From: Kineosporia babensis
GTDB lineage: Bacteria > Actinomycetota > Actinomycetes > Actinomycetales > Kineosporiaceae
NCBI RefSeq assembly: GCF_021129305.1
Contig: NZ_JAJOMB010000024.1
Location: forward strand, 1 to 64,000
DNA length: 64,000 bases
Direction: 5' to 3'
A model generated the notes under the pieces. It made no database searches. It worked only from the letters and a program-made list of their open reading frames with translations, and was not told the origin of the DNA. A program made the translations under genes and the position numbers. Shown in pieces: positions 15,059-55,244 of this stretch. Each line of letters begins with the position of its first letter. The first letter of the stretch is position 1.

Positions 15059-15075
15059 CGCGCAGCGGTCGGATG

Positions 15076-27568: not shown

Positions 27569-27698
27569 GAGAACCCCCTGCGTGCGGGCCGTTTGACCAG
27601 CCCGTTCCTGAATGTGCGGCGAAGCTACCACGGAGTTCGGCGCTCGCTCAGGCAAGTCGCCGATCCTTCATCGGTGCAGGTCACGGCCTCCACCACGG

Positions 27699-29212: not shown

Positions 29213-29360
29213 TCTGCTGCCCTCTCGTGGATGCGGTGCTTTCCGCAACGTGGCAGCCGGCGCCCCAGTCTGACTCAAGGGAAACTCCGCCGGTGGTCGA
29301 ACCCGCAGGTCCGCAGGAGCGGCAGGGACGCGCTCGGACGTCCCTGCCGCCCGGTGACAC

Positions 29361-29828
29361 TCAGCTCCAGGAGTCCACCGGAGCCTGGCGCACCGTGGTG
29401 TTCAGCCGGTTGAAGAAGTTGGCGGTGGCCACGTGCAGGATGATCGCCGCCAGCTGCTTCTCGTCGAAGTGGTCCGCGACGGCGTCCCAGATCTCCTCGC
29501 TCACCGAGCCCGGGTTGTCGGCCAGCCGGGTCATCGCCTCGGCCAGCGCCAGGGCGGCCCGCTCGGCGTCGTCGAAGAGCGGTGACTCCGCCCAGCCGGG
29601 CAGCGCCAGCATCCGCTCGGTGCTCAGCCCCACCTTGGCGGCGTTCTGCACACCGGTGTGGATACAGGCCGTGCACCCGTTGATCTGGCTGGCCCGCAGA
29701 TGCACCAGCTCCAGCGTCTGCTCCGGCACCCCACCGGAGTGGATGGCCGCCATCAGGTGCCCCACCCCCTGGTACGTCTCCGGCAACAGGGCCGCCGGGT
29801 TGCTCATCCGCTGCTTCAGTTCACTCAC
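29361..29828 (-). CDS. AhpD-like carboxymuconolactone decarboxylase family protein
   Basis: The 155-residue all-helical protein contains the redox motif C-T-A-C-I-H-T-G within INGCTACIHTGVQNA, preceded by the usual EQTLELVHLRASQ. This is the AhpD-like branch of the CMD family, which acts as an alkylhydroperoxidase with a CxxC dithiol. It may protect the cell against redox cycling or peroxides from the quinone product. GTG 29828 follows AGGAGAGAACGC. It is divergently transcribed from the KSalpha gene across 246 bases. Confidence 0.88.
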   Translation of the reverse strand: MSELKQRMSNPAALLPETYQGVGHLMAAIHSGGVPEQTLELVHLRASQINGCTACIHTGVQNAAKVGLSTERMLALPGWAESPLFDDAERAALALAEAMTRLADNPGSVSEEIWDAVADHFDEKQLAAIILHVATANFFNRLNTTVRQAPVDSWS

Positions 29829-30074
29829 GCGTTCTCTCCTGACGAGTTCGGTTCAACGGGTCATCCGGTCTGACGTACGGGGCGGGCCGGAGGTAACACG
29901 GGCCCGGGCCGTTCCCGCACCGGAGAGAACCGATCCTTCCGCTGACCTTCGAGTAACCCTCCACCCGCGGAACGCAGGCTCGGGACGAAAATCGTTCACC
30001 GGCTTGGGGGTCAGGCGTCTTGGACCGGTCACGGATGTTAGGGCGAGTGCCGCGGACAGCGGGCAGGTGTTCCG

Positions 30075-32575: not shown

Positions 32576-32609
32576 CCACCCGGTTACCCGAAGCAGAAGG
32601 AGAACGCCG

Positions 32610-32867
32610 ATGAGCACACCGATCACCCTGACCGACCTGGAAGACATCATGCGCCGCTGCGCGGGTGAGGACGAGACCACCTCACCGCTGGAGCAGGGAC
32701 CGCACGAGCCCTTCGACGAACTCGGGTACGACTCGCTGGCCCTGCTGGAGACCCTGAACCACATCCAGCGCGACTACGGGGTGCAGATCTCGGACGACGA
32801 ACTGGACTCGGCCAAGACCCCCCGGCAGCTGCTCGACCTGGTCAACCGCCGGCTCGGCGTGGCCTGA
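32610..32867 (+). CDS. Acyl carrier protein of the minimal PKS
   Basis: The 85-residue ACP carries LGYDSLALLE with phosphopantetheine Ser42. ATG 32610 is preceded by GAAGGAGAACGCCG. It lies directly after KSalpha/CLF in the canonical order, so it is the elongation ACP. It shares LEDIMR and the carrier core with the starter ACP but differs elsewhere, consistent with separate roles. Confidence 0.95.
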   Translation: MSTPITLTDLEDIMRRCAGEDETTSPLEQGPHEPFDELGYDSLALLETLNHIQRDYGVQISDDELDSAKTPRQLLDLVNRRLGVA

Positions 32868-32869
32868 GC

Positions 32870-33865
32870 GTGATCGCCTCACCGCCCCGGCGGGCGGCTC
32901 TGCTGATGCCGGGTCAGGGCGCCCAGTACCCGGGGATGGGTACCGGGCTCTACCGCCGCCTGGAGCCGTTCCGCACAGCGCTCGACGAGGTGTTCGACGC
33001 CCTGGGGCCCGCGGGAACGGCGCTGCGCGAGGACTGGCTCAGCGCTGCCCCGCGGATCCCCAGCGACGACGCGCGCAGTTCTCAGCCGCTGCTGTTCGCG
33101 CTGGACTACGCGCTGGGCCGGGTGCTGCTGGAGCTGGGCCTGCAGCCGGTGTACGCCCTCGGCCACAGCGTGGGGGAACTGTCGGCGGCCGCGCTGGCCG
33201 GGGTCTTCGACCTGCGCGACGCCCTGGCCATCCTGCAGCAACGGGTGGCGGCGGTGGGATCGGCCCCGGCGGGTGGCATGGTCGCGGTGGCCGCCACCCG
33301 CTCCGAGATCGAGCCGCGGCTCATCCCGGGCGTGGATGTAGCGGCCGTGAACGCACCCCGTCAGGTCGTGCTCGCCGGGCCTCGGGAACCGCTGCAGGCC
33401 ATGGTCCAGGCGCTTCGCGAGGACGGGTTCACCTGCGCGCCGGTGCCCTCGCAGGCACCGTTCCACAGCACCGCACTGCGGCCCCTGGCCGATGCGGCGC
33501 TCCCGCTGCTGAAGTCGATTCCGGTGCACCCCGCGCAGCTGAGCATCTTCTCGGGTTACACCACCCAGCCGCTGGGCCCGGAGCAGACCGAGGACCCGTC
33601 CTACTGGGCCGCGCAACCCGTGGACCCGGTGCTGTTCTGGCCCGCCCTCAGTAATCTCAGCGAGCACGAGCCCGACGTTCTGATCGAGTGCGGTCCGGGC
33701 ACCAGCCTGATCACGCACGCCCGGCGACTGCCCGCGGTCCGGAACGGCCGCTGCGCCGTGGTGTCGCTGCTGGGCCCGCCGCGCAACGGCCCGGGCGCCG
33801 AGTTCGACCACTTCAGCGCGGCCATCACCGCCCTAGTCCCAGGGCAGGACTACATCGGCGGGTGA
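32870..33865 (+). CDS. Malonyl-CoA:ACP transacylase
   Basis: The 331-residue FabD-fold acyltransferase has LLMPGQGAQYPGMG, the nucleophile Ser100 in ALGHSVGELSAAAL, AVNAPRQVVLAG and the PFHSTALRP His region. It begins at GTG 32870, two bases after the ACP stop. A dedicated transacylase is unusual in type II PKS clusters, which mostly borrow FabD from primary metabolism; it likely feeds malonyl to the elongation ACP. Its 3' end overlaps the convergent glycosyltransferase gene by 33 bases. Confidence 0.93.
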   Translation: MIASPPRRAALLMPGQGAQYPGMGTGLYRRLEPFRTALDEVFDALGPAGTALREDWLSAAPRIPSDDARSSQPLLFALDYALGRVLLELGLQPVYALGHSVGELSAAALAGVFDLRDALAILQQRVAAVGSAPAGGMVAVAATRSEIEPRLIPGVDVAAVNAPRQVVLAGPREPLQAMVQALREDGFTCAPVPSQAPFHSTALRPLADAALPLLKSIPVHPAQLSIFSGYTTQPLGPEQTEDPSYWAAQPVDPVLFWPALSNLSEHEPDVLIECGPGTSLITHARRLPAVRNGRCAVVSLLGPPRNGPGAEFDHFSAAITALVPGQDYIGG

Positions 33866-41949: not shown

Positions 41950-41988
41950 AGGTTGCGCCGGAGGCAATACTTTTCAGTGCCGCAACCT
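41950..41988 (-). terminator. Inverted repeat after the peptide operon
   Basis: AGGTTGCG (41950-41957) and CGCAACCT (41981-41988) can form an 8-bp stem directly behind the stop codon of the PNPOx-like gene. It may end the minus-strand operon that begins at 51727, or be part of the dehydratase promoter. Confidence 0.45.
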
Positions 41989-42443
41989 CACGGAAGCCAG
42001 GCTCCGTCGCGCATCAGGTCCCGGCCGGCGATCTCGTTCACCTCACGCCAGGCCTGGATCCGCTGAGGACGGATGTGGAAGAACGGGTAGGGCTCCTTCT
42101 GCGCCCGGGGGTCGAACCCGGCCTTGGCCGCGAACGCGTCCCCCACAGCCTTGGTGGGCCCAGGAGCCGGCAGCGCCCGCACCACCCCGTCGACCATCAC
42201 CACGTCCCGCACCTGCCCCACTCCCAGCCGCACCCGGCCGTTGGCCAGCAGATTCCGGCCGGTGACGGAGTTGCGGGGAGTCGAGACCAGGAAACCGGCA
42301 CCGTCCCAGAAGAAGGACAGCGGGATCAGGTAGGGCCCGTGCGTGGCGTCCGAGGAGGCCACCCACAGGTCGATCTCGTTCTCGAACTTGGCCAAGGTGT
42401 CCTTCACCCGCTGGTCGTGCTCACGGGGTGGGGCCTGACTCAT
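41988..42443 (-). CDS. PNPOx-like split-barrel flavoprotein
   Basis: The 151-residue protein has the split beta-barrel of the pyridoxamine-phosphate oxidase / F420-dependent reductase group: DLWVASSDATHGPYLIPLSFFW, RNLLANGRVRLGVGQVRDVVMVDG and a C-terminal FFHIRPQRIQAWREVNE. Cofactor could be FMN or F420; the family covers oxidases, reductases and quinone-reducing proteins. The start overlaps the aldolase stop (TAATG), so it is translated as the last cistron of the peptide operon. Its role there is unknown. Confidence 0.78.
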   Translation of the reverse strand: MSQAPPREHDQRVKDTLAKFENEIDLWVASSDATHGPYLIPLSFFWDGAGFLVSTPRNSVTGRNLLANGRVRLGVGQVRDVVMVDGVVRALPAPGPTKAVGDAFAAKAGFDPRAQKEPYPFFHIRPQRIQAWREVNEIAGRDLMRDGAWLP

Positions 42444-43507
42444 TATGCCTCCGTAACTCCGCTCGTCTGGGCCACCGACCGCAGTGCCTGCGCGGCCCGG
42501 CGTACGCTCTCGACTCCGTGCGAGCGGTGCAGCACGAAACGTACGTACCCGGTGGGAAGGGACAGTACGCGAACGCCGTGCTCACTCAGCCGAGCGCTGC
42601 ACTCCGGGGAGGTCAGGCCCGCGAGTCGCACCATGACCAGGTTCGTGGGATGCCGCGAGCGCAGCACCTGGGCCCCGGGTACGTGGCTGACCTCGGCCCG
42701 CAGCTGGGCGGCGGTGGCGTGGTCCACGGCCAGGTCGGGCAGGCGGCCCAGGGCCCGCAGAGCCGGCGCGGCCAGAACCCCGCTTTGGTGCATCGTGCCG
42801 CCCAGCCAGGCCCGGAGCCGTCGGGCCTGCTCGACGAATTCCTCGCTCCCGCACAGCAGGGCCCCGGCCGGAGCGCCCAGCCCTTTGGACAGCGCGAAGG
42901 TGACGCTGTCGGCCGGCCCGGCCAACGCGGCGGGTGGGCAGCCGAGCGCCACTGCAGCGTTGGACAGGCGGGCGCCGTCCAGGTGCAGGTGGGCGCTGTG
43001 TTCGTGCACCTGCTCGGCCAGGGCCTGTGTCTGTTCCAGGGTGATGGCGTTGCCGGCGTGCATCATCGCGGTGTTCTCCAGACCGACCACCGTGGGCCGA
43101 CCCGCGTCCTTACGCAATTGCTTTTGCAGGTGTTCCTGGTCGGGCACCCCGTCCTCGTCCTGCTCGCAGGTCTGCAGGTCGATGCCGCCGAAGCTCTGCA
43201 GCCCCTCGGCTTCGAGGAAGCCCATGTGGCTGTGCTCCCCGACGATGGCCCGGGGCGCCCGATCGCCCGCACCGTTGCTCGCGTGGGTACGTACGGCGAG
43301 GAGGTTGGCCATCGTGGCGGTGGGGGTCAGGAGTGCCTTCTGCGTGCCGAGCAACTCCGCTCCGGCCGTCTCCAGGCGGATGACGGTGGGGTCGTCTCCG
43401 TAGACGTCGTCGCCGACCTGAGCGGAGGCCATGGCCGAGCGCATCGCCGGGTCGGGCAGGGTTCGGGTGTCGCTGCGAAAGTCCAGGCAGGGCGGCGAAT
43501 CGGCCAT
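42443..43507 (-). CDS. Threonine aldolase-like PLP enzyme
   Basis: The 354-residue fold type I PLP enzyme of the low-specificity threonine aldolase family has DFRSDTRTLPDPAMRSAM, the HLHLDGARLSNA Asp/His region and the PLP Lys in VTFALSKGLGAP. It would cleave or form beta-hydroxy-alpha-amino acids (glycine plus aldehyde). With an aldehyde dehydrogenase gene beside it, an aldehyde-generating or aldehyde-consuming pair is suggested. ATG 43507 is three bases after the dehydrogenase stop. Confidence 0.9.
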   Translation of the reverse strand: MADSPPCLDFRSDTRTLPDPAMRSAMASAQVGDDVYGDDPTVIRLETAGAELLGTQKALLTPTATMANLLAVRTHASNGAGDRAPRAIVGEHSHMGFLEAEGLQSFGGIDLQTCEQDEDGVPDQEHLQKQLRKDAGRPTVVGLENTAMMHAGNAITLEQTQALAEQVHEHSAHLHLDGARLSNAAVALGCPPAALAGPADSVTFALSKGLGAPAGALLCGSEEFVEQARRLRAWLGGTMHQSGVLAAPALRALGRLPDLAVDHATAAQLRAEVSHVPGAQVLRSRHPTNLVMVRLAGLTSPECSARLSEHGVRVLSLPTGYVRFVLHRSHGVESVRRAAQALRSVAQTSGVTEA

Positions 43508-43510: not shown

Positions 43511-44923
43511 TCAGCCGCCCGGCCGGTGGGCCACCCACACGGCCCGGGCCCGGGTGTAGCCCTCGACCGCGTGCAGGCCCAGTTCTCGCCCGTAGCCGGA
43601 CTGGCCCAGCCCGGACACGCTGACGCTCTCCTCGGTGTCTCCCCAGGTGTTGGCCCACACCAGGCCGGCCCGGAACGCTCGCACGAATCGTTCCACCCGT
43701 TCGGTGTCGGTGCTCCAGACCGAGGCGGACAGGCCGTAGGCGGTGTCGTGGGCCAGGTTCAGGGCCTGGGCCTCGCTGGTGAAGGTGGCCACCGACAGCA
43801 CCGGGGCGAAGATCTCCTCCCGCCAGGCGCGTGCCGAGGTCGGCACGTGGTCCACGATCACCGGGTTGACGAAGAAGCCACCGTCCAGCTCGTGCCGAAC
43901 CCCCGTCGCGGATGCGGGCAGCACGATGCGCGCTCCCGACGCCTCGGCCTCCTCGACGATCTCGGCCGTGCGCTCGAGGGCGGCTTGCGTGATCAACGGA
44001 CCCAGGTCGGTCTCCGCGTCGCGCGGCCGCCCGGGCCGTAGGGCGCCGGCAAGTTCGGCCACCCGGGTCACGAACTGCTCGTGGATCGGCTCCTCGACCA
44101 CCAGACGCGTCCCGGCCACGCACATCTGCCCGGTGTTGCCGGTGAAGGCGTTCACCACCGCGCGGGCGGCGCCCTCCAGGTCGGCGTCTGCGAAGACCAC
44201 CACCGGGCTCTTGCCGCCCAGTTCCAGCGACACGGGTTTGATCGCCTCGGCGCAGCGGTGGGCGACTTCCCGGCCGGCTCTGGTCGATCCGGTGAAGGAG
44301 ACCATGTCGGTACCCGGGTGGTCGCACAGAGCCTGCGCGACCTCGGTGCCGCCGTAGACGGCACTCAGCACGTCCGGGGGCAGCACCGTCTCGGCCCTCT
44401 CGACCAGCCGATGGATCGACAAGGGCGTCTCCGGAGCCGGTTTGACCACCACAGTGTTGCCGTAGGCCAGGGCGGCAGCGAGCTTCCAGGTGGCAAGGAG
44501 CAGGGGGTAGTTGTTCGGGCAGATGGCCGCCACCACGCCGACCGGCACGCGGTCGGAGTACACGCGCATCCCGGGGCCGGCGGGGTGGGTCTGCCCCTGG
44601 GGGTACAGACTCGCCGCGGCGAACCAGTCGAGGACCCGCACCGCGAAGTCCACCTCGCCGAACGCCCGGGCCGTGGGCTTGCCGGTGTTGCTCTGCTCCA
44701 GCTCGGCGAAGGACACCCGCTCGGCCCGCACCAGATCGGCGAGTGCCCGCAGCCGGTCGTGCCGCTGGGTGGGCGTGGTCCGGCTCCACGTGTCTTCGTA
44801 GGCCGCCCGGGCGCGCTTGAGCGTCTCGTCGACACCCGCCGCCGTGGTGTCGGGCAGGTGCTCCACCACGCTGCCGGTAGCCGGATCGAGCACCGCCCGG
44901 GCCTGCTGCTGCGAGCGCGTCAC
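43511..44923 (-). CDS. Aldehyde dehydrogenase
   Basis: The 470-residue NAD(P)-dependent aldehyde dehydrogenase has PNNYPLLLATWK, FTGSTRAGREVA, the catalytic Glu in SLELGGKSPVVVF and Cys in NTGQMCVAGTRL. It resembles betaine/amino-aldehyde dehydrogenases. GTG 44923 overlaps the stop of the asparagine synthetase fusion (GTGA). Substrate is not evident; the product of the aldolase-like enzyme or an oxidised peptide-derived aldehyde is possible. Confidence 0.93.
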   Translation of the reverse strand: MTRSQQQARAVLDPATGSVVEHLPDTTAAGVDETLKRARAAYEDTWSRTTPTQRHDRLRALADLVRAERVSFAELEQSNTGKPTARAFGEVDFAVRVLDWFAAASLYPQGQTHPAGPGMRVYSDRVPVGVVAAICPNNYPLLLATWKLAAALAYGNTVVVKPAPETPLSIHRLVERAETVLPPDVLSAVYGGTEVAQALCDHPGTDMVSFTGSTRAGREVAHRCAEAIKPVSLELGGKSPVVVFADADLEGAARAVVNAFTGNTGQMCVAGTRLVVEEPIHEQFVTRVAELAGALRPGRPRDAETDLGPLITQAALERTAEIVEEAEASGARIVLPASATGVRHELDGGFFVNPVIVDHVPTSARAWREEIFAPVLSVATFTSEAQALNLAHDTAYGLSASVWSTDTERVERFVRAFRAGLVWANTWGDTEESVSVSGLGQSGYGRELGLHAVEGYTRARAVWVAHRPGG

Positions 44924-47808
44924 GCCAGGACCTCCTCGTGACCGGCCAGCCGCAACGCACTGTCGAGGCGGCCCACCGTCTCGGCGAAACCGTCGCGCCC
45001 GAGACCGGCACCCGCGCTCGCGAGCAGCCGCAGGTCGTACCCGTCCGGGTGCCGCCACACCGCTTCGCAGGCGCCGAAGTCGCGGTCCACGTAGCCCAGA
45101 TGCACGGTGCGCCCGCCGATCTGGGCCACCTCGCGATGCGCCGGGTGCTTCTCGGGCCGGGGCGGGAACTGCAGCCGTCCGGCGCCGGTGCGCTGCAGCA
45201 GCAGCCGCAGCTCGGCGCCGGTGTCGCTGAGGTACACGATCTCGAGTTCGCGAGCGCCCCCGGCGTCGCCGAAGGTTGCCGCGCTCTGCACCCGGAACCC
45301 GCCCACCGACGTCGGCAGGCCCTGACCGGAGACGAACCGGGGCACCTGGGCCGTGGCCACCCACTCACCCTCGTGCGAGCGTCCTTTGCGTTCCATCACG
45401 AACACGCCGGTCGGCACCGACACCATGTCCACCGGGTAGCGGGCCCAGTAGCTGAGCTCGTGGAACGGGGTGGCCAGGACCCGGGCCGGTACCGGCTCCT
45501 GCGCCGGGCGCAGGCCCGCGAACAGCTCGCGGATCTCGTCGTCGCCGAAACTGCCTTTCAGGACGGACATCTCCACGGTGGTGCGGGCCATGCGGGCGCC
45601 GGCTCCCGGGTGGCCCAGGTAGTCGGTGCCCAGCCACACGACGCGTCCCTCACCGATCGGTACGGCCCGGGTGGGGCTGCCCCACAGGCAGGGGTGGTCC
45701 ACGGCCGGGAAGGCCCAGTCGTACAGGAACTGCTTCAGCCGCAGCCGTCGGCCGCCGCCGCTGATCTCGGTGCGGTAGGCACTGGGGTTGGCGGCGCTCC
45801 ACGGCGTGCGGCCGGCGGTGTGCTCGGTCCGCCCGGGCGGTGCCTCCCGCCGCAGGGTGCCGATCACCTCGTTGCACCCGTCCGGCAGCGAAGTCGGTTG
45901 CCAGAGAACGAAGTTGCACCATTCCTGAGCCTCGGCCTCGGGCATCCGGGCCGGCTGAGGGTCCATCTCCTGGGCATCGGTGAGCGTGTTCCACTGCCAG
46001 GTGGGGTGGCTGGCGGTCATCAGGCCTCCTGCGGCGGGGTGGGTGGTGGGCCGGGCCAGGTCGGCGAGCCAGGCGGAACTGGAGGCGAGGAACATCCACT
46101 CCCCCACGCCCAGGCGCCGGCGCAGCTGGGCGGGCAGGGGCGGCAGGCCGAACGGCATCCCCAGCTCGTCGGCCTGCTGCGCGAGCAGGTCCAGGTAGCG
46201 CGGATCGGTCGGCGAGGGAAAGCCCTGCTTGGGGCGGGCGCGCACCGAGGCGGGCAGCAGGTCGTCCAGGGCCGACTTCAGCAGGTCCTTGTGGCTTCCC
46301 GGCTGCTGCGAGTACTTCAGGTGCTCGGGGGCACGGAAGGCCAGCTCGGCCAGCGTGACGTCCTGGAACACCGGCCGGTCCTCCAGCGTGAAGCTGCTGG
46401 ACGTGGCGTCCACCATGTCGTTGACGTAGACCAGGAAGCGTCGCAGCAGGTGATGGCGGCCGCGCTTGAGCGGGTCGAGGGCCGGCAGCGAACGGTACTC
46501 GGCCAGCACCCGCTCCCAGACCTGCTCGTGCACCTCGCCCAGGTTCACGTCGAGCTGCCGGGCCAGCCAGCCGATCAGCTGGGCCCACACCGGGCGCTCG
46601 CGCGCGTGCAGGTGGTGGGTGAGGTAGTGCCGGGCGTGCAGGTGCGTGGGGGCGGCCGGGTCGACGATCGGGAAGTAGCCACCGTCCTGGTAGCCCCACA
46701 GTTCGTCGGCTCCGTGCCCGGAGTACACGACGACGTTCCCGTCGGCGCTGATGCTGCGGTAGAGCTGGTACATGGCCAGTTCGGCGCCGTGCAGCAGCGG
46801 GCGCATCAGCCGGCCGGGCAGCACGCTCACCAGGTCGGCGGCGGTGCGGCGGTCCAGGTCGCAGACGGTCAGCGGGGTGTCCAGGAGCTCGGCGACCTCC
46901 TGGGCGTGCCGCGCGTCCTCGCCCGAGCCGCCGATGCCATCCTGGTAGCGCACCACGTAGGCCTGTACCGGTTCCCCGGCCGCGCGCAGGCCCGCCAGCA
47001 CCGCCGTACTGTCCACGCCGCCGCTGAGCACGGCCGCCCGGGGCACGTCGGCCGCCCGGCGTTCCTGCAGGGCATGGTCGAAGGCCGCGCGGATCTCCTC
47101 GGCGCCGACCGGGGTGTCCTGTGGCTCGATGCTCCAGAACCGTCGTGTGTGCAGGCGGGGCGCGGTGATGCTGAGGTACTGGGCCGGGGGAAGAACCCGG
47201 ACGTCGCGCAGCCAGCTGTGCTCGTCGGCGGCGTCCATCCGCACCCAGGAGCGCAGCACGAACTCGGCGGGGTCGACCTCGGCGCCGACCAGACCGGTGC
47301 TGAGCAGGGCCTGGGGTTCGGAGGCGAACAGGATGCCGCCCTCGGTGTGGCTGTAGACCAGCGGCTTGACCCCGAAGTGGTCGCGGGCCAGCACCACCTG
47401 CCCGGTGACGGTGTCGTGCCAGGCCAGCGCGAACATGCCGGACAGCGCGCGCAGCGCCGCGGCCGGATCGGCCGAGCCGTGGATCTGCTGCAGCACGAAC
47501 TCGGTGTCTCCCGGGCTGCGCGGCGACCACTGCGGCGCCCGGGGATCGCGCGAGGAGTACACCTCCCCGTTGTGCACCAGCACCGTGCGCCCGTCGGGCG
47601 AGGTCATCGGCTGGTCTCCGGCCGGACTGCGATCCCGCACCGCCAGGCGCACGCTGGTCAGCATCACGCCGGCGTCGGCACTGACGTACGGGCTGGTGCT
47701 GCCCTCACCCCGGTGGGCCATGGCCGCGTTCATCCCCCGGCCCAGCGCCTGCAACCAGGACCGGTCGTGGGGGCCCTGCAGGCTCACGAAGCCGGCTATC
47801 CCGCACAT
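44920..47808 (-). CDS. Asparagine synthetase-like protein fused to an unknown domain
   Basis: This 962-residue single reading frame starts at ATG 47808 inside the esterase gene. Residues 1-590 are AsnB-like: Cys2 nucleophile in MCGIAGF, glutaminase ARDHFGVKPL, and the ATP-pyrophosphatase loop AVLSGGVDSTAV at 261-268, with YSGHGADELWGY. From Met597 onward (366 residues) there is an unrecognised domain rich in Trp/Tyr (TWQWNTLTDAQEM, WCNFVLWQPTSLPDGCNEV, LYDWAFPAVDHPCLW). Met597 (ATG 46020) has a perfect AGGAGG five bases upstream but no stop codon separates the two parts, so a fusion plus a free C-terminal product are both possible. It likely amidates or forms an amide/lactam on a carboxylate; substrate unknown. 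Confidence 0.85.
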   Translation of the reverse strand: MCGIAGFVSLQGPHDRSWLQALGRGMNAAMAHRGEGSTSPYVSADAGVMLTSVRLAVRDRSPAGDQPMTSPDGRTVLVHNGEVYSSRDPRAPQWSPRSPGDTEFVLQQIHGSADPAAALRALSGMFALAWHDTVTGQVVLARDHFGVKPLVYSHTEGGILFASEPQALLSTGLVGAEVDPAEFVLRSWVRMDAADEHSWLRDVRVLPPAQYLSITAPRLHTRRFWSIEPQDTPVGAEEIRAAFDHALQERRAADVPRAAVLSGGVDSTAVLAGLRAAGEPVQAYVVRYQDGIGGSGEDARHAQEVAELLDTPLTVCDLDRRTAADLVSVLPGRLMRPLLHGAELAMYQLYRSISADGNVVVYSGHGADELWGYQDGGYFPIVDPAAPTHLHARHYLTHHLHARERPVWAQLIGWLARQLDVNLGEVHEQVWERVLAEYRSLPALDPLKRGRHHLLRRFLVYVNDMVDATSSSFTLEDRPVFQDVTLAELAFRAPEHLKYSQQPGSHKDLLKSALDDLLPASVRARPKQGFPSPTDPRYLDLLAQQADELGMPFGLPPLPAQLRRRLGVGEWMFLASSSAWLADLARPTTHPAAGGLMTASHPTWQWNTLTDAQEMDPQPARMPEAEAQEWCNFVLWQPTSLPDGCNEVIGTLRREAPPGRTEHTAGRTPWSAANPSAYRTEISGGGRRLRLKQFLYDWAFPAVDHPCLWGSPTRAVPIGEGRVVWLGTDYLGHPGAGARMARTTVEMSVLKGSFGDDEIRELFAGLRPAQEPVPARVLATPFHELSYWARYPVDMVSVPTGVFVMERKGRSHEGEWVATAQVPRFVSGQGLPTSVGGFRVQSAATFGDAGGARELEIVYLSDTGAELRLLLQRTGAGRLQFPPRPEKHPAHREVAQIGGRTVHLGYVDRDFGACEAVWRHPDGYDLRLLASAGAGLGRDGFAETVGRLDSALRLAGHEEVLA
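46005..46020 (-). promoter_or_regulatory. Internal ribosome binding site and start within the AsnB fusion
   Basis: On the minus strand GCAGGAGGCCTG immediately precedes ATG 46020, in frame with the upstream AsnB part. It is the strongest Shine-Dalgarno in this operon, and it would yield a separate 366-residue protein. Confidence 0.6.
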
Positions 47809-48809
47809 GCCAGCGGTTCCGGATGCTGCGGCCAGATCTCCTTCAGCGCCGCCAGGGCCTCCACGACGACATGCTCGATGCCGTGGTGGCCGCCGGCGTG
47901 CTCGCGGTAGCGGTGCGGCAGCCCGTGCTGCTCCAGGGTGGCGTGCAGAGCCCGGGCGCCCCAGTGCATCCCGTACTCGTCGCGCTGCCCGACATCGATG
48001 TGCAGCAGCGCCAGCGACGACAGGGCGTGCACGTGGTCGGCGACCATCCGCACCGGGTCGTGCCGCAGCCACTGCTGCCAGACCTCGTCGCGGAAACGGC
48101 CGGTGACCGGATCGCAGACGAACGCCTGCCCGGCCGTCAGCCCGGCCCGGGAGGAGTAACACACGCCCATCGCCACCAGGCTCATCGCCACCATGAAGGA
48201 CGCGTCGTGCGGGCCGCTCTCGCGCTGCGCCAGCAGGTGCTCCAGCCCGCCGGCCGCGCCCAGGTGGTCCAGCACCGACGGCAGCAGCGGCAGGTAGCAG
48301 TGCTCGAACCCGGCGTCCGGCGAGTGCGCCAGCACCGAGCCGAACAGCGGTGACGTCATGCCCGCGATCAGCGCCCCGTACCCGCCGCTGGACTTCCCGG
48401 CGACCGCCCGGGCCCGCCAGCCGGGCACGGTGGCGAACCGGTGGTCCACCACGTCGACCACCTCGGCCAGGTACTGCGCGTAGGCCCCGCAGCCGGGTGA
48501 GTCGATGTACTGCGAGCCGCCGAAGGCGGTGGTGCAGTCGGGCACCACCAGCAGGGCGGCCGGGACGCTTCCCTCGAGCATCGCCTGGTGCAGCCGCCGG
48601 ATCGGGGCGGAGCCGAAGGCGTAGGGACGGGTGGCCAGGGTGGGGCGGGCCCCGAACCCGCTGAGCCAGTAGACGACCGGGTAGCTGCGGGACTCGTCGT
48701 AGCCCGGCGGCAGGTGGACCTCGACGGTGCGCCGGAACGGATCGCCCAGCGGGTTGTGGCGCAGGCACTCGCTCTCGTGCTCCACCAGCAGCATCTCGCC
48801 GGCGCTCAC
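47796..48809 (-). CDS. Esterase D / enterochelin esterase-like hydrolase
   Basis: The 337-residue alpha/beta hydrolase carries VEVHLPPGYDESRSYPVVYW, the nucleophile elbow AGKSSGGYGAL, an Asp in LLHIDVGQRDEYG and the catalytic His in AGGHHGIEH, the Fes/EstD layout. It probably hydrolyses an ester or transfers an acyl group. GTG 48809 overlaps the stop of the metallo-beta-lactamase-fold gene (GTGA), and its end overlaps the AsnB start by 13 bases. No signal peptide is seen, so it acts in the cytoplasm. Confidence 0.88.
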   Translation of the reverse strand: MSAGEMLLVEHESECLRHNPLGDPFRRTVEVHLPPGYDESRSYPVVYWLSGFGARPTLATRPYAFGSAPIRRLHQAMLEGSVPAALLVVPDCTTAFGGSQYIDSPGCGAYAQYLAEVVDVVDHRFATVPGWRARAVAGKSSGGYGALIAGMTSPLFGSVLAHSPDAGFEHCYLPLLPSVLDHLGAAGGLEHLLAQRESGPHDASFMVAMSLVAMGVCYSSRAGLTAGQAFVCDPVTGRFRDEVWQQWLRHDPVRMVADHVHALSSLALLHIDVGQRDEYGMHWGARALHATLEQHGLPHRYREHAGGHHGIEHVVVEALAALKEIWPQHPEPLACAG

Positions 48810-50209
48810 CGTCCGGCGGCCTTCAGGAAGCGCTGCACGTGACGGGTGTAGTGGGCCGGGTGGTGGAAGACGGCCGAGAGCAGGTTGCTGTCGCTGGCCC
48901 AGAGGGTGAACGAACTGCCGTAGAGCAGCTCGTCGTGCAGCAGGGCTTCCAGGGTGCTGGCCGCGATCTCGGTCCAGCTCTCGGTGCCGGTGAGGTGTTC
49001 GCGGGCGGGACCGGACCCGCAGCGGGTGATCCGCGCGGCCACCGGATCCAGCAGGAAGGACGTCTGTTCCCCGTCGTCCTCGTACAGCGAGATCACGTGG
49101 CCGCCGGCCCCGGCGTCCAGGGCGCGGTACCAGAAGTCGGTGGCCACCAGGCGTTGCAGCAGGTCGGCCAGCAGGTCCTCGGCGCCGCGGGACTGCCGGC
49201 CCACCCGGTCGACGGCGGGGTCGAAGGCCGGTACCTCGATCTGCGGGTCCAGAGCCACCTCGGCGTAGACCTTCTCGAAGTCGTAGGCCTGCGGGCCGAC
49301 CGGCCCGTCAACCCGTTCCACGCTTCCCGGGCCCACCTGAAGAACCTGCCCCGGCCCCCACAGCAGTCCCTCGCGCTGCAGTTCCTGCAGCCGTTGCCGG
49401 GCCTCGACCGGCGTGAACGGGAACATCGCGTGGTTGCACCAGTCGTACTCCGGGCCGGTCTCCGCGCTCACCCGCCACCCGAAAGACGAGGGGATGGTGA
49501 CGGCGGCCGGGATCGCCTGCACGTACCGCTCGAACGTGGCCTGGGCCCGGGCCCGCACCGCCTCCGCGTCGCCCACCGGCCGCCGCTCGGTGAGCACCCC
49601 CGGCGGAGACACGCTGTGGGCGGGCAGGAACAGCGCGTCCACCCGCGGGGCGTCGGGCTGGGCGAACGCCTGCACCGTGCTCTCGTGCAGGATCGAGTCG
49701 CCGCACAGCAGCACACTGGCCTCGGGGGTGCTGACCAGCACGCTCATCTCGGGGAAGGGCACCGCGGAGGGAAACGTCCGCAGGGTGGCCCCTTCCAGTA
49801 CGACGGTCTCGCCCGGGCGGACCGGCCGCAGCTGCTCGAAGCCGAACCGGCGCAGGGTCCAGGCGATGGCCTGGTGGCCGAGCCCGGAGGCGGTCAGCCG
49901 TGGGGGCAGCGCACCCGTCGGGTAGATGCAGGTGATGTCGGCGGTACGGTGCGGGCTGTCGTCGAAGTCGACCTCGCTGTCCTCCCCCAGCCGCAGCAGG
50001 GAGGGGAAATGGTGGTGGTCGAAGTGGTGGTGGCTGAAGACCACGTGGTCCACCCCACCCTCCAGCACCTCGTCCACCAGCGGGGCGGGCAGCGCCGGAT
50101 GGTGCTCCCAGAACCGGTCCAGGCGCTGGGTGAGCCAGGGATCGAAAAGGATGCGCTCGTGGCCGGTCTCGACCAGCACCGCGGCGTGCCCCAGCGACGT
50201 CAGGCGCAT
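48806..50209 (-). CDS. Metallo-beta-lactamase-fold hydrolase with extra C-terminal domain
   Basis: Of 467 residues, about the first 250 form an MBL fold of the UlaG/NAPE-PLD-like type: LTSLGHAAVLVETG, the di-zinc motif H60-x-H62-x-D64-H65 in VFSHHHFDHHHFP, LLCGDSILHES and LFLPAHSVSP. The C-terminal 200 residues, which start after about VDRVGRQSRGAED, are not recognised (DFWYRALDAGAGGHVISLYEDD). ATG 50209 overlaps the preceding stop (TGATG). It could hydrolyse a phosphoester, lactone or amide, or be an oxygen-dependent diiron enzyme, since the fold serves both. Confidence 0.85.
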   Translation of the reverse strand: MRLTSLGHAAVLVETGHERILFDPWLTQRLDRFWEHHPALPAPLVDEVLEGGVDHVVFSHHHFDHHHFPSLLRLGEDSEVDFDDSPHRTADITCIYPTGALPPRLTASGLGHQAIAWTLRRFGFEQLRPVRPGETVVLEGATLRTFPSAVPFPEMSVLVSTPEASVLLCGDSILHESTVQAFAQPDAPRVDALFLPAHSVSPPGVLTERRPVGDAEAVRARAQATFERYVQAIPAAVTIPSSFGWRVSAETGPEYDWCNHAMFPFTPVEARQRLQELQREGLLWGPGQVLQVGPGSVERVDGPVGPQAYDFEKVYAEVALDPQIEVPAFDPAVDRVGRQSRGAEDLLADLLQRLVATDFWYRALDAGAGGHVISLYEDDGEQTSFLLDPVAARITRCGSGPAREHLTGTESWTEIAASTLEALLHDELLYGSSFTLWASDSNLLSAVFHHPAHYTRHVQRFLKAAGR

Positions 50210-51576
50210 CAGTCCCTCACCTCGTAGACACAGCGGAATCCGACCTCGTTGTGCCGGTCGGTGATCAGGTCCTTGCCGCGGTAGAACGTGGTCAGGCAGG
50301 TCTGCGGGGAGGTCCAGGTCCCGCCGCGCAGCACGTGGAAGGCGTCCTTGCGGTTCATGAACTCCAGCGGGTGACGTCCGCGGAAGAACGGGTCCATGTC
50401 CTGGCCGGTGTAGAAGTTGGTCCGGGTGAGTTCCCAGACGTTGCCGGACATCTGCAGCGCGCCGTACGGGCTGGCCCCCTCGGGCAGCGCGTCGGCCGGC
50501 AGCACCGGCCGGGCGGGGACGCTGTCGGAGGTGATGGTCACCAGCAGGCCCTCCAGCTCTTCCAGGTCCGAGACCTCGCGGCCGAAGGAGCGCTCGACGT
50601 AGTTGACCCGGGCCGGGTCCCAGTCCTCGCCCCACGGGAAGCGGCGGCCGTCCGGGCCGCGGGCCGCCTTCTCCCACTGCACCTCGCTGGGCAGACGCCC
50701 GCCGGCCCAGTTCGCGAAGGCCCAGGCGTCGTACCAGTCGATCCCGACCACCGGCGCCTGGTCGGCGTTGAAGCGCGGGTCGTGCCCGTGCACCGGCCGG
50801 TGGGAGCGCTCGAGCGGCTGGTCCGGATGATCGAACTCACCGCTGCCGTCGACCTCTTCGAGGAACTGGCGGTAGCGGGCGTTGGTGACCGTGGTCCGGT
50901 CGATCAGGAAGGCCGCCACGTCCACGATCCGTGAGCCCTCGTCCTGGGTCATCCGGAACGGGCCGGGATCGACACCGTCCGCACCGATCACCGCCGGCCC
51001 CTGCGGCACCAGCACCGTGTCGCCGAAGCGGGGCGCCCGGGTGCGGGCTCGTTCCAGCTGCTCGCGCATCCCGGAGAAGTACTCGTCCTCCAGCCGGCGC
51101 AGCTCCTGCGGGTCGCGGGTGCCGAACACGGCGATCAGGGCCTGCTTGGTCAGGGCCGCCCCGCAACCGACCGGTTTGCGGGTGAAGTCGGGCCGGGTGA
51201 AGTTGCTGGGCCAGCCGGAGATCCGGATCAGGTCCGGCACGGCCACCCGGATCCGGTACTGGGAGATGGTTTTCAGCGCGGTGAAGGCCACCCAGTCCAC
51301 GGTGTCGTGGGTGCCCGCGGCGATCGCCTCCTGAGCCCGCGCGTCGGCGGCGTGGTGCTCGGCCAGCAGACGCACCGCCGCCGCTCGCACCGGCCACTGC
51401 GGATGCGCCACCACCAGCGAGCGCAGCAGCTCCAGCCCGGCCGGACCGGAGGCCTGGCGGCGCCCGAGCTCGATCACCGCCTGGATCGAGGCCCAGTAAC
51501 GCTCGTCGTGGGAGTCGTCGATCTGCAGCAGTTCGGCGGGGATCTCGCCGGCCGGGGCCACCCGGTGTCCAACCAC
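50209..51576 (-). CDS. HEAT-repeat plus FGE-sulfatase (SUMF1/EgtB/PvdO) protein
   Basis: This 455-residue protein has an N-terminal helical HEAT-like part (ASIQAVIELGRR, WPVRAAAVRLLAEH, WVAFTALKTISQY, up to about 140) and a C-terminal formylglycine-generating-enzyme fold: FLIDRTTVTNARYRQFL, GIDWYDAWAFANWAGGRLPSEVQWEKAARGP-like core, MSGNVWELT and NEVGFRCVYE. Relatives oxidise Cys in peptides (FGE), form C-S bonds (EgtB) or mature the pyoverdine chromophore (PvdO). GTG 51576 is preferred: AAGGAG lies six bases upstream, while ATG 51582 abuts it. The gene follows the 19-residue peptide gene, suggesting that peptide as substrate. Confidence 0.87.
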   Translation of the reverse strand: MVGHRVAPAGEIPAELLQIDDSHDERYWASIQAVIELGRRQASGPAGLELLRSLVVAHPQWPVRAAAVRLLAEHHAADARAQEAIAAGTHDTVDWVAFTALKTISQYRIRVAVPDLIRISGWPSNFTRPDFTRKPVGCGAALTKQALIAVFGTRDPQELRRLEDEYFSGMREQLERARTRAPRFGDTVLVPQGPAVIGADGVDPGPFRMTQDEGSRIVDVAAFLIDRTTVTNARYRQFLEEVDGSGEFDHPDQPLERSHRPVHGHDPRFNADQAPVVGIDWYDAWAFANWAGGRLPSEVQWEKAARGPDGRRFPWGEDWDPARVNYVERSFGREVSDLEELEGLLVTITSDSVPARPVLPADALPEGASPYGALQMSGNVWELTRTNFYTGQDMDPFFRGRHPLEFMNRKDAFHVLRGGTWTSPQTCLTTFYRGKDLITDRHNEVGFRCVYEVRD

Positions 51577-51598
51577 GCGCATCTCCTTCGTCCGGGCA

Positions 51599-51631
51599 CC
51601 GCCCGCACGGAGTTCACCTCCGCACGGGCGG
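51599..51631 (-). terminator. Stem-loop after the short peptide gene
   Basis: A 14-bp stem (two G-U pairs in the minus-strand RNA) pairs 51599-51612 with 51618-51631 around a five-base loop, 37 bases after the peptide stop and just before the HEAT-FGE gene. Such attenuators are common behind RiPP precursor genes, where they raise precursor over enzyme levels; a trp-like attenuator is the alternative. Confidence 0.6.
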
Positions 51632-51667
51632 CACTGTTCAGTCACATCGGTCGCGCGGACCGGCGAA

Positions 51668-51727
51668 CTACCACTTGGTGGTGTCCTGGTCCTCGTCCCG
51701 CGTGTCCATGAAGTCGCCGTCAGACAT
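51668..51727 (-). CDS. 19-residue peptide, candidate precursor or leader peptide
   Basis: The full product is MSDGDFMDTRDEDQDTTKW. ATG 51727 has GGAAGGAG nine bases upstream, one of the best ribosome binding sites in the window, which argues for true translation. It is the first cistron of the minus-strand operon ending at 41988. It is strongly acidic (seven Asp/Glu in the last 15), has two Thr, a Lys and a C-terminal Trp, and no Cys, Ser after position 2, or hydrophobic leader. Candidates: a RiPP/peptide-scaffold substrate for the FGE, PhyH, AsnB-like and ATP-grasp enzymes, a carrier like the acidic-tailed amino-group carriers, or a regulatory leader. No recognised family. Confidence 0.6.
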   Translation of the reverse strand: MSDGDFMDTRDEDQDTTKW

Positions 51728-51893
51728 GTTCGATCACTCCTTCCCGTGGAGGTGACAGATGTGAGCCGACCGGCACACAGAGCGAGAGCTTAAGCAGCGC
51801 AACCCGGTTGCGGCAACGGTACGAGATGAACGCCCGAGCGGGTACTTTCGTTCAGGAACCGCGACCCGCACCGGCGAGCCAGGGAGATTCCGG
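51728..51893. promoter_or_regulatory. Divergent promoter region, peptide operon / PhyH
   Basis: 166 bases separate the peptide start (minus) and the PhyH start (plus), so both promoters must lie here. The content is noticeably less GC-rich around GAGCTTAAGCAG and GGTACTTTCGTTCAG. No 11-bp TCGAG repeat of the SARP type is visible, in contrast to the polyketide promoters, suggesting different control. Confidence 0.45.
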
Positions 51894-52682
51894 ATGAGCA
51901 TCGACACATCGGCCGATCTGCGCGGGAGCATGATCCGAGACGGATTCGCCGCTCTGCCGGGCCTGCTCGGACTCGCGCACCTGCAGCAGCTGCGGGCCGC
52001 GGTCGGTGAACTGCAGGCCCGGGCCGGCACGCTCACCGCCTCCAGCGACGACTTCGTGCTGGAGGCCGCCGGGATCGGGGGCTGGGCCGCCTGGCAGCAG
52101 GACCAGCCGCCCCTGGCCGGTGTGCTGCGCTCGGCCAGCCGAATCCACCAGCACGTGACCGCATTCGACGACATCCAGCAGTCGCTGGGCTTGGCCGAGG
52201 GCCCGGTCGCGGCGGTGGCCGGTACACCGGGCCGGCTGGTCAACGCATTTCTGTGGGCCAAACCCCCGCTGGTGGGTTCGGAGAAGCCGTGGCACCAGGA
52301 CATGGCCTTCGCTCCAACCGGTTTCGACCTGGACACCAGCAGCGTCCTGACCGTGTGGATCGCCGTGGAACCGGCGACCACGCGCAACGGCTGCCTGCAG
52401 TTCATCCCCGGCTCACACCGTAAGGGCCTGCTGCCGCACGTCGGCGATCCGGAGCGCGGGCCTGGTCAGCCGGCGGCGCAGCAGGCGGTCGAGCCGCACG
52501 TCGAACTTGAGGGCACGGCCGTTCAGGACCAGGCGCTTTCGCTGCCCCTGGCCCCGGGCTCAGCGGTGCTGTTCGACGGTATGGTGCTGCACCGATCAGC
52601 CCCCAACCTCACCGCCTCCGAACCACGTACCGCGGTCAGTTTCGTGTATCAGGTGCCGCGCCCGGCCTGGACCAGGGCGTAG
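51894..52682 (+). CDS. PhyH-type Fe(II)/2-oxoglutarate dioxygenase
   Basis: The 262-residue protein of the phytanoyl-CoA dioxygenase family has the facial triad H134-x-D136 in KPWHQDMAFAP and a distal His in DGMVLHRSAPNLT (about 229), with CLQFIPGSHRKG in between. It hydroxylates, desaturates or halogen-independently oxidises a small molecule or amino acid residue with 2-oxoglutarate and O2. ATG 51894 follows CAGGGAGATTCCGG. It is divergent from the peptide operon and its 3' end overlaps the ATP-grasp gene by 34 bases, so it likely belongs to the same pathway. Confidence 0.9.
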   Translation: MSIDTSADLRGSMIRDGFAALPGLLGLAHLQQLRAAVGELQARAGTLTASSDDFVLEAAGIGGWAAWQQDQPPLAGVLRSASRIHQHVTAFDDIQQSLGLAEGPVAAVAGTPGRLVNAFLWAKPPLVGSEKPWHQDMAFAPTGFDLDTSSVLTVWIAVEPATTRNGCLQFIPGSHRKGLLPHVGDPERGPGQPAAQQAVEPHVELEGTAVQDQALSLPLAPGSAVLFDGMVLHRSAPNLTASEPRTAVSFVYQVPRPAWTRA

Positions 52683-53953
52683 AACGCCCGGCCGTCGAGG
52701 TGCCGGATGGTGTTCAGATCCCGCTCCACCACCGACCGCAGCGGATGTACCAGTGTGACCAGCACCGGAAAGGTCAGGTCGTTCACCGTCACCGACAGAC
52801 GACCGCCCGGCTCGACCAAGAGGGCCAGCGCGTGAAAGCTCTCCAGAGAACGGATCTCGTCCAGTCCCTGGTACTCCCGCAGGGTCCCTTCCACCGGCGA
52901 GACCATCCCGGCGATGGCGCAGTGGCGCTGCAGGGCGTAGCCGGTGCCGACCCGCTGCCGAAACCGCTCCGGGTCCGTGTAGGCGTCGACCGTCCATTCC
53001 AGCTGCGACTCCCCGATGCCGAGACCAGCCGTGGCCGGGATACCCCCACCGGCGATCCGGGCCCCGATCTCCACCAGGCACGGACCCTCGGGCGTGAGCC
53101 TGACCTCCAGGTGAGCCGGTCCGTGCTGGATCCCCATCGCGTCCAGCACCTCGAAAGCGTATTTCTCCAGCGCCGGTACGACCTGGTCGGGCGAGGGCAC
53201 CAGCACCAGCGCGTCGCACAGGTCCACGATCCCGTTGGCGCTGATCCGGTCGGTGCGCCAGACGTCGCACACCTGGTGCCGGCCGTCCCGACTGACGGTG
53301 TTGACCATGTACTCGGTGCCGGACAGGTATTCCTGGGCCACCACCGCACGATTGGGCTGCGCGAAAACGTCGAGTTCACCGATCAGTCCTCGGTACGCGG
53401 CCACCGACTCCTCGGGCGAGTCACAAAAGTGCACACCCTGGCTGCCCGAGCTGCGCAGCGGCTTGATCACCACCCGCCCACCGAGCCGCCGGTGCCACAT
53501 CTCCAGTTCCTGGGCGTCGGTGACCCGCAACTGCCGGCCCGCATGCACTCCCGCTGCATGCAAGGTCTGCACCATGAGGTACTTGTCCCGCCGGGCAGCG
53601 CTCAGCGCCGTGCCGTTGCCGGGTAACCCCAGCGAATCGGCCAGCAGATCAGCGAACTCGACGCCGACCTCTCCGCCGGGCACCACCGCCACCGGCGCGA
53701 ACGCCCGCACGGCGGCCACCGTCGCGGCCACGTCGCCCTCGTGCTGGATGTCGGCCACGAAGTCGCTGGCCACCGGCAGGGCGGACCGGTACACCGGGGG
53801 CACCCCGATCGTGGACTGCACCCGCACGCAGTCGAACCCTCGTTGCCGAAAAGCCAGGACAAGCGATCGGACGGCCGCATAGGCATCCACCACGACCACA
53901 CACGGACGGTCCCCGGTAGCGTCAGGCATACGAGCAACATAAGCGACCGGCAC
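52649..53953 (-). CDS. ATP-grasp carboxylate-amine ligase
   Basis: The 434-residue ATP-grasp enzyme resembles L-amino-acid ligases (BacD type): an N-terminal Rossmann-like part with PGGEVGVEFADLLADSLGLPGNG, the DKYLMVQTLHAAGV central start, VIKPLRSSGSQGVHF, VVAQEYLSGTEYMVNTV and the Mg-binding LEVRLTPEGPCLVEIGARIAGGG. It activates a carboxylate as acyl phosphate and joins it to an amine. GTG 53953 follows CGAAAGGACCG; ATG 53929 is an alternative. It is not of the RimK/MdnC type used on graspetides. Convergent overlap with the PhyH gene suggests shared function. Confidence 0.88.
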   Translation of the reverse strand: MPVAYVARMPDATGDRPCVVVVDAYAAVRSLVLAFRQRGFDCVRVQSTIGVPPVYRSALPVASDFVADIQHEGDVAATVAAVRAFAPVAVVPGGEVGVEFADLLADSLGLPGNGTALSAARRDKYLMVQTLHAAGVHAGRQLRVTDAQELEMWHRRLGGRVVIKPLRSSGSQGVHFCDSPEESVAAYRGLIGELDVFAQPNRAVVAQEYLSGTEYMVNTVSRDGRHQVCDVWRTDRISANGIVDLCDALVLVPSPDQVVPALEKYAFEVLDAMGIQHGPAHLEVRLTPEGPCLVEIGARIAGGGIPATAGLGIGESQLEWTVDAYTDPERFRQRVGTGYALQRHCAIAGMVSPVEGTLREYQGLDEIRSLESFHALALLVEPGGRLSVTVNDLTFPVLVTLVHPLRSVVERDLNTIRHLDGRAFYALVQAGRGT

Positions 53954-54044
53954 CGGTCCTTTCGAGTGCTCGGTGACGGCGGCCTGAACTCAGGCCGCCC
54001 GCAGCCCCTTCCGCGAACCCGTGCCCTCGCAGAAACCGGATGCC

Positions 54045-55244
54045 ATGACCTCACTTGTCACCCCGCTGCAGCGCTCGCCGTATCTCGTTCCCCTGCTGCT
54101 CTTCAGCAACACCAGCGGAAGTTTCCTGGTGCTGGTCGCCCTTTCCACGCAGGTCGGCTCGGACACCGGCTCCGGGCTGCTGGCCGGCGCCGTGCTCAGT
54201 GCCCCCTGGCTGCCGGCCCTGCTCCTGGCCCGCCCGCTGCAGCGACTGCTGACCCAGCACTCGGCCCGCCGGCTGATCCGCACGGCCGAGATCTGCAGCC
54301 TGGCCCTCACCCTGGCCGCGATCGCGCTGCCCGGCCCCGCCCTCGTCGTCGGCGCCACCACTGCGCTGCTGGTACGCGGCTTCTGCGAGGCCGTCACCCG
54401 CTCCGGCACCTCGGTCCTGCTGCGCCTGGTCACCGACCCCGGCCGGCTCAACCGGGCCAACACCCTCGCCGAGATCGGCCGCCTCACCGGAACCAGCGTC
54501 GGGGCCGCCCTGGTCGGCCCGGCCGGCACAGTGCTGTCCCTGCGTGGGCTGCTGGTGCTCAACGCCGCCACCCTGCTCACTTCGGCTCTGCTGGCCCGGG
54601 CCCTGCCCGAACCCGGGCCGGCCGTCGAACCGGCCACCGACCAGGCTCCGGAGGATCGCCTGAGCCCGCTCATCCACAACCCGGTGCTGCTGGCCCTGTT
54701 CGCCCGGTTCTCACTGGTGGCCCTCTGGCAGGGTTTTCACACCATCGCGGTCACCGTGATCCCGTTGCAGGTGCTCCACGGCGACGAGCGACTGGTCGGG
54801 ATCTTCGTCGCGCTGTCCTCCCTGGCGATCTTCGCCGGTTCGCTGGGTGCGCTGCCGGTGCAGAAATACCTGGGCCGACTGCCCTCCGCCACCTGGCTCC
54901 TGCTGCCGTTGCCACCGCTGGTGGGAGCCGTCCTGATCGCCCGGACCGTCCCGTCCCTGCTGTTGTACGCCGTGTTTCTGGTGCTGTTCGAGGTCGCCTA
55001 CGTCTACTTCAACAACCGCCTGCTGGCGGCCGCGACGCCGGAGGAGATCCCTACCGTCGTCACCGTGCGAGCCACCGCCATGCCCCTGGCCGTGGTCACC
55101 GCGATCGTGGGGGTGGGCGCGGTGAGCGACCTGGCCGGGCCGACGTCCGCGGTACTGCTCGTGGTGGCGTGCACGGTGCTGGTATCCGCTGTCAGTGGAT
55201 CGGAAACCGCTCCCGGACGGCTGCTGTCACGTGGATCCCGCTGA
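54045..55244 (+). CDS. Major facilitator superfamily transporter
   Basis: The 399-residue membrane protein (from ATG 54045; an in-frame GTG at 54021 adds eight residues) has about eleven or twelve hydrophobic segments, e.g. YLVPLLLFSNTSGSFLVLVA, LALTLAAIALPGPALVVGA, WLLLPLPPLVGAVLIA. It resembles MFS efflux proteins of actinobacterial clusters (MdtH/EntS-like). It probably exports the metabolite of the adjacent peptide/ATP-grasp genes or the polyketide. It is divergent from the ATP-grasp gene with only about 90 bases between. Confidence 0.87.
   Translation: MTSLVTPLQRSPYLVPLLLFSNTSGSFLVLVALSTQVGSDTGSGLLAGAVLSAPWLPALLLARPLQRLLTQHSARRLIRTAEICSLALTLAAIALPGPALVVGATTALLVRGFCEAVTRSGTSVLLRLVTDPGRLNRANTLAEIGRLTGTSVGAALVGPAGTVLSLRGLLVLNAATLLTSALLARALPEPGPAVEPATDQAPEDRLSPLIHNPVLLALFARFSLVALWQGFHTIAVTVIPLQVLHGDERLVGIFVALSSLAIFAGSLGALPVQKYLGRLPSATWLLLPLPPLVGAVLIARTVPSLLLYAVFLVLFEVAYVYFNNRLLAAATPEEIPTVVTVRATAMPLAVVTAIVGVGAVSDLAGPTSAVLLVVACTVLVSAVSGSETAPGRLLSRGSR

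Follow-up and report, generated by a model that had tools for sequence, protein, structure and literature searches.

The precursors of PQQ and mycofactocin, PqqA and MftA, are peptides of about 20–30 residues with invariant C-terminal residues, their genes head the operons, and PqqB is an MBL-fold protein. In the pearlins (BhaA, AmmA), small scaffold peptides associated with PEARL ligases, a C-terminal Trp is the site of the chemistry; BhaC1 recognizes a 20-residue peptide and oxidizes its C-terminal Trp, with a helical-repeat (TPR) contact seen in an AlphaFold model (PMC9850906). The kinamycin, fosfazinomycin and lomaiviticin pathways have a hydrazine cassette (PMC12154649, PMC6133997), and FzmA, an AsnB homologue, hydrolyzes gamma-glutamylhydrazine and has been suggested to pass hydrazine on to a carboxylate (PMC6133997). 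Here, we compare these systems with a locus from Kineosporia babensis (contig NZ_JAJOMB010000024.1, positions 1 to 64,000; this whole stretch of 64,000 nucleotides is called the window). A preliminary description of the window had proposed that a very short minus-strand frame encodes a peptide and opens an operon of enzymes. Its reading of the peptide gene and of the ribosome site ahead of it agrees with the sequence and translation, the 60-bp frame translating exactly to the peptide below followed by a stop:

51668-51727, (-) strand: peptide gene of 19 codons plus stop, read as 51727-51668, translation MSDGDFMDTRDEDQDTTKW; found in 17/17 operons and subjected to the coding test below
51737-51744, (-) strand: Shine-Dalgarno sequence of the peptide gene, read as 51744-51737, GGAAGGAG; a purine-rich site is present in 17/17 operons

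The peptide has no match in NCBIfam, and the PLSDB gene tables of the two Streptomyces plasmids described next, which are incomplete, list no gene at its site. When plasmid records were searched by tblastn with the MBL-fold protein of the operon, two Streptomyces linear plasmids with the complete gene order were recovered. Scanning one genome per species with an alignment of the FGE-like protein yielded 11 more operons at 73–75% identity (10 from Streptomyces and one from Thermomonospora catenispora), after which identity fell to 36% or less. A DNA pattern built on the invariant residues of the peptide matched six times in 393 Streptomyces genomes, three of these matches being new (G609, G641 and G705), and once, at the already known case, in 345 genomes of the Thermomonospora order. 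The reversed pattern, used as the control, had no match in either set, and the pattern itself was found in no other gene context among the 738 genomes. The resulting set of 17 operons thus comprises the window, the two plasmids, 10 other Streptomyces contigs, Thermomonospora and the three further Streptomyces genomes. In all 17, the 19-codon gene lies directly upstream of the HEAT-FGE gene, with no indels, and its position is the operon start and never elsewhere. The proposal that it is a conserved, translated-looking first cistron holds for the whole set; loss of the short frame from homologous operons, named beforehand as the outcome that would count against it, was seen in 0 of the 17.

We then asked how the peptide varies. 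The 17 operons contain 13 distinct nucleotide sequences that encode 10 distinct peptides, each of 19 residues, with the consensus M[ST][DE]xxF[IM]xTR[DE]xxx[ED]xxKW-stop. M1, F6, T9, R10, K18 and W19 are invariant, and the C-terminal KW whose recurrence had been suggested as a check is retained in 17/17. Amino-acid conservation extends over the full length of the peptide and includes residues 6, 9 and 10 in its N-terminal part. Variation is concentrated at third codon positions, with 9, 8 and 14 of 18 columns variable at positions 1, 2 and 3, respectively. Mean pairwise amino-acid identity is 12.71/18, compared to 10.20 (sd 0.14) for a null in which equal numbers of nucleotide changes were placed at random; none of 500 replicates reached the observed value, and 33% of the null sequences gained an internal stop. 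Pooled pN/pS for the first 14 sequences is about 0.5, a weak figure with so few sites, and the coding argument therefore rests on the indel-free length and the null test. Drift without coding conservation, the other outcome named in advance, is not what these data look like. Judged by such comparisons, the frame at 51727-51668 on the (-) strand is a genuine coding gene.

Downstream of the peptide gene lie the operon enzymes, and on its other side their neighbors:

50209-51582, (-) strand: protein with HEAT repeats and an FGE-sulfatase fold (Pfam PF03781, 6e-43; HEAT_2 below threshold); 70–76% identity in relatives
48806-50209, (-) strand: MBL-fold protein with HxHxDH and about 250 aa of extra C-terminal region (Pfam; conserved residues)
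47796-48809, (-) strand: PF00756 esterase-fold hydrolase with GxSxG (Pfam; conserved residues)
46012-47808, (-) strand: AsnB-like glutamine-dependent synthetase
about 44920-46020, (-) strand: 365-aa protein, fused in frame to AsnB in the window only (no Pfam or PDB family)
43511-44920, (-) strand: aldehyde dehydrogenase (PF00171, 7e-146)
42443-43507, (-) strand: GntG-family PLP-dependent aldolase (NF041359, 285 bits, cut-off 230)
41988-42443, (-) strand: PNPOx-like FMN/F420 protein (PF01243)
51894-52682, (+) strand: PhyH-type Fe/2-oxoglutarate oxygenase, divergent from the operon (PF05721, 1e-31; HxD retained)
52649-53953, (-) strand: ATP-grasp amide ligase (PRK07206/DdaF-like); an ATP-grasp gene adjoins 17/17 operons
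54021-55244, (+) strand: MFS transporter, adjoining 15/17 operons

The gene list and order given by the preliminary description stand for the HEAT-FGE, MBL, esterase, AsnB-like, aldehyde dehydrogenase and PNPOx genes, as does the placing of PhyH and ATP-grasp beside the operon; its AsnB fusion proved peculiar to the window, and its aldolase-like enzyme belongs to the GntG family. The AsnB-like and 365-aa proteins are separate genes in different frames in 16/16 other operons and a single ORF (44920-47808) in the window, which may be either a natural fusion or an indel. An AF2 prediction of the 365-aa protein (pLDDT 66, no confident fold match) is a low-confidence model in which a unit of beta-sheet plus helix may have been duplicated within the protein. 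Genes that travel together with the peptide gene are those for the FGE, MBL, esterase, AsnB, 365-aa, GntG, PNPOx and ATP-grasp proteins, with PNPOx off the contig end in one case. In the G609 operon (5861-8350 of its contig), no aldehyde dehydrogenase gene stands between those for the 365-aa protein and GntG, and G705 has no PhyH near the operon; these two enzymes are therefore dispensable or replaceable. The ATP-grasp ligases of G641 and G705, where the operon lies away from the polyketide cluster, are just 34% identical to those of the other operons.

The AsnB-like enzyme retains the glutaminase Cys2 and the ATP loop SGGVDS. Its nearest solved relative is the hydroxyamidotransferase 7ylz (7.6e-33), with E. 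coli AsnB behind at 8e-20. With both glutaminase and synthetase motifs, and with this family closest among solved structures, it resembles in sequence the N-X amidotransferases (TsnB9/7ylz, FzmA). Formylglycine-generating enzymes have paired active-site cysteines in a C-terminal motif. In the HEAT-FGE protein, the motif RGGTxTSPxxCLTTFYRG contains one Cys in 17/17, as compared among the 17 homologues, and the nearest PDB matches are EgtB and CalU17. Its AF2 model (pLDDT 39) is too poor for judging peptide binding.

How does this locus compare with the peptide systems introduced above? As in the pearlins, a small peptide has a C-terminal Trp as the putative site of chemistry, here deduced from the genes, and a modifying enzyme has a helical-repeat recognition domain, TPR in BhaC1 and HEAT here. 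Unlike in the pearlins, the Trp is encoded rather than PEARL-added, and the enzyme set is different. We also considered a strongly acidic peptide paired with a basic HEAT domain, as for BhaA and BhaC1, and found no clear sign of it: the net charge of the peptide is mildly acidic across relatives (-1 to -5), and the HEAT region is near neutral. A PEARL/LanB gene (PF04738) is absent genome-wide in G641 and G404 and is found on other contigs only in the genome of the window. Since G641 and G404 have no LanB/PEARL gene, the peptide is not a pearlin and no PEARL-type gene is needed, in keeping with the preliminary description, which saw no PEARL enzyme in the window. The likeness to PqqA and MftA is of another kind, namely a short peptide, invariant at its C-terminal residues, whose gene opens an operon that also encodes an MBL-fold protein. 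However, the enzymes here are FGE-like, AsnB-like and GntG proteins, and Pfam and NCBIfam scans of the operon genes recognized neither a radical SAM enzyme nor a PqqD/MftB-like RRE, so this is not a PQQ or mycofactocin operon. In the literature that we searched, which left most subscription papers outside, we found no published description of the peptide operon or its enzyme set.

The preliminary description had overlooked that the operon sits in a type II polyketide cluster. The window encodes a ketosynthase, chain-length factor, ACP, cyclases, FAD monooxygenases and an LnmK-like starter enzyme, and it also carries deoxysugar genes. KinI, KinJ, KinL, PurB-like and GNAT genes occur together in it, in two parts recognized by synteny:

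12736-17420, (-) strand: hydrazine cassette part 1, with KinJ-like heme protein, KinI-like ferredoxin and KinL-like glutamine-synthetase homologue
18968-20696, (+) strand: hydrazine cassette part 2, with PurB-like lyase and GNAT

The Kin names follow from gene type, mutual homology and synteny with the published cassette rather than from alignment to reference Kin sequences. The same gene types as in the kin, fzm and lom clusters thus occur in the cluster or genome of the peptide operon, whereas the operon itself is an extra module, and the kin, fzm and lom accounts that we consulted describe none. Cassette genes are present in 17/17 operon genomes; a KinL homologue was found in 13/13 genomes or plasmids compared in the first round, and KinJ in the 3/3 added genomes (G609, G641, G705). 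In nine cases, operon and cassette lie on the same contig, and five drafts are not resolvable for linkage. In at least three cases, the two are not closely linked: they are about 300 kb apart in G641 and 1.7 Mb apart in G705, and in G397 about 146 kb separate the operon from the end of its 7.16-Mb contig, with the cassette on another contig. As KinJ occurs in 21/393 Streptomyces, the chance of finding it in both single-contig unlinked genomes is about 0.003, a guide rather than a test because the genomes are related.

Conversely, 16 Streptomyces genomes have KinJ but not the peptide; these also lack the MBL gene, with generic 75-residue matches alone. Several of the KinJ-positive, operon-less Streptomyces have a ketosynthase of the same subfamily (83–91%) beside KinJ, some of them on megabase contigs. 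As other cassette-bearing Streptomyces do without operon and peptide, the operon is an accessory module; judged from this distribution, neither the core polyketide nor the N-N bond requires it. For the same reason, we rejected the idea that the operon supplies nitrite or hydrazine to the cassette. One apparent absence is of a different sort: the cassette of G501 is 84–94% identical to that of a Streptomyces NBC_00525 plasmid, and its contig stops exactly where the operon would begin, and so the lack of the operon there may be an assembly gap and not a true absence. In G641, the KinJ match falls into two pieces inside one open frame, suggesting an insertion or a divergent stretch.

Two genetic hallmarks of a RiPP-type precursor are present, a ribosomally encoded peptide gene under coding selection in 17/17 operons and a linked enzyme set that travels with it. 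Because the gene is kept in 17/17, always ahead of the same enzyme genes, in relatives with the hydrazine pathway, we think that the 19-mer is probably made by the ribosome as a scaffold or precursor, with its invariant C-terminal Trp as the residue on which the operon enzymes act. Further support comes from the enzyme core, which accompanies the peptide even where the operon is remote from the polyketide cluster (G641, G705), from the lack of the operon in KinJ-positive genomes without the peptide, and from the conserved hairpin described below. For the chemistry, we draw on the hydroxyamidotransferase nearest to the AsnB-like enzyme and on the precedents of FzmA and BhaC1; the order and substrates of the steps are our inference. 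The HEAT repeats of HEAT-FGE would bind the N-terminal two thirds of the peptide (F6, T9, R10) and present Lys-Trp; the AsnB-like enzyme would activate a carboxylate, in the simplest case that of Trp19, and transfer nitrogen to it, with either glutamine or the gamma-glutamylhydrazine that KinL is expected to make as the donor. Oxidation of the C-terminal residue could fall to PhyH and the FGE-like protein, and release of the small product to the MBL-fold and esterase hydrolases. The GntG aldolase and aldehyde dehydrogenase might process the freed beta-hydroxy amino acid, which the ATP-grasp enzyme would couple to an acceptor, be it the aromatic polyketide or something else. The whole operon would then serve hydrazine-type aromatic polyketide pathways as an accessory module for tailoring. 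Against the scaffold or precursor reading, no RRE or dedicated peptidase was recognized in the operon, the peptide is just mildly acidic, and its fixed place at the operon start is also what a cis-acting leader would require. Moreover, Kin clusters without the operon exist, and the operon chemistry is thus unneeded for the core product.

In a special case of this reading, the AsnB homologue would move hydrazine from gamma-glutamylhydrazine to the Trp19 carboxylate, and the peptide hydrazide would later deliver the N-N group. The cassette genes in 17/17 genomes, the N-O amidotransferase as closest solved AsnB relative and the precedent of FzmA (PMC6133997) are all consistent with such a carrier. 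Yet in kinamycin biosynthesis AlpH installs glutamylhydrazine directly and no peptide takes part (PMC10477347), many cassette clusters do without the operon, and AsnB could use plain ammonia; we regard the carrier as rather unlikely. With similar reserve, we raise the possibility that the encoded C-terminal Lys-Trp is a platform where an AsnB-type transferase places the cassette-made N-N unit, by which ribosomal peptide and type II polyketide pathways would meet in one product.

A peptide gene so placed could also act in cis. Very short peptide genes directly before an operon, with a hairpin after, are characteristic of leaders such as TnaC and ErmCL, and a conserved hairpin separates the peptide stop from the gene that follows:

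51596-51634, (-) strand: GC-rich hairpin between peptide stop and FGE gene, without a U-tract, present in all relatives

Translation of the 19-mer, with stalling at the terminal Trp or stop, would then gate passage through the hairpin into the operon, and the peptide would not be a substrate. The fixed site directly 5' of the first enzyme gene in 17/17, the single Trp codon adjoining the stop, and a length that fits entirely within the ribosome exit tunnel, such that the sequence could be conserved for stalling, are what this account would expect. The hairpin has a stability of about -28 to -42 kcal/mol across relatives. Two plasmid rows were left out of structure prediction. Its core pairs are retained almost throughout, and two positions of the stem each have one double-changed sequence (C-G to T-A; T-A to C-G), along with several G-U exchanges. 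However, Rfam has no family match at the leader, the distance from stop to hairpin differs between relatives, and the hairpin, 3' of the peptide stop and 5' of the FGE ribosome site, leaves that site unobstructed. Pairing of the peptide coding region with the hairpin arms is weak (-8 to -16 kcal/mol) and not conserved, which rules out a conserved anti-hairpin; accordingly, the mutually exclusive hairpins of transcription attenuation were not found in the leader coding region. No known stalling motif is present, conservation extends to N-terminal residues 6, 9 and 10, and no Trp genes are under the control of the putative leader. The missing Rfam match, the lack of competing pairing and the conservation of the whole peptide together weaken the regulatory-leader alternative of the preliminary description, and we consider it unlikely. 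A plausible role for the hairpin is that of a message-stabilizing or partial-stop element favoring peptide over enzyme: it might impede transcription or shield the message on its 5' side, giving more peptide than enzyme.

The peptide might instead be a small accessory subunit, an unmodified partner or chaperone that stabilizes one operon enzyme. It is small, conserved and co-transcribed with a fixed enzyme set, but it has just 19 residues, six positions of which are invariant, and an invariant C-terminal residue would be unusual for a helper peptide; to our knowledge, no enzyme subunit of this size exists in these enzyme families, and we view this role as quite improbable. That the frame is a chance ORF in a conserved intergenic region, as its short length and its first sighting in one sequence might have suggested, is refuted by 17/17 conservation without indels, the third-position bias and a null that never reached the observed identity.

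A scaffold or precursor role for the 19-mer would mean a further class of ribosomal-peptide chemistry, one that relies on FGE-like, AsnB-like and GntG enzymes and uses neither PEARL nor radical SAM; should the peptide prove to be a nascent-chain sensor, we would be dealing with an unusual regulatory leader in an antibiotic cluster. The pathway has been overlooked so far, as genes of 19 codons tend to be passed over by annotation pipelines and cluster finders report just the type II polyketide cluster. The operon marks a subset of hydrazine/diazo aromatic polyketide clusters that is expected to yield a product with an extra moiety.

Some minor features of these loci deserve mention. Near the operon, the sequences suggest an enolase-superfamily epimerase-like gene in G705 and a DUF1611-like gene in G641. 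Lomaiviticin has a propionyl-type starter, and in the window, from a genome outside Streptomyces, the LnmK-like enzyme, ketosynthase, ACP and acyltransferase at 28166-33865 suggest a starter of this type. We set aside a TAP-like hydrolase (25997-27655) as a leader peptidase; it may be a counterpart of epoxide hydrolases, likened by description rather than by sequence to the alpha/beta hydrolases Alp1U and Lom6 (PMC4506494).
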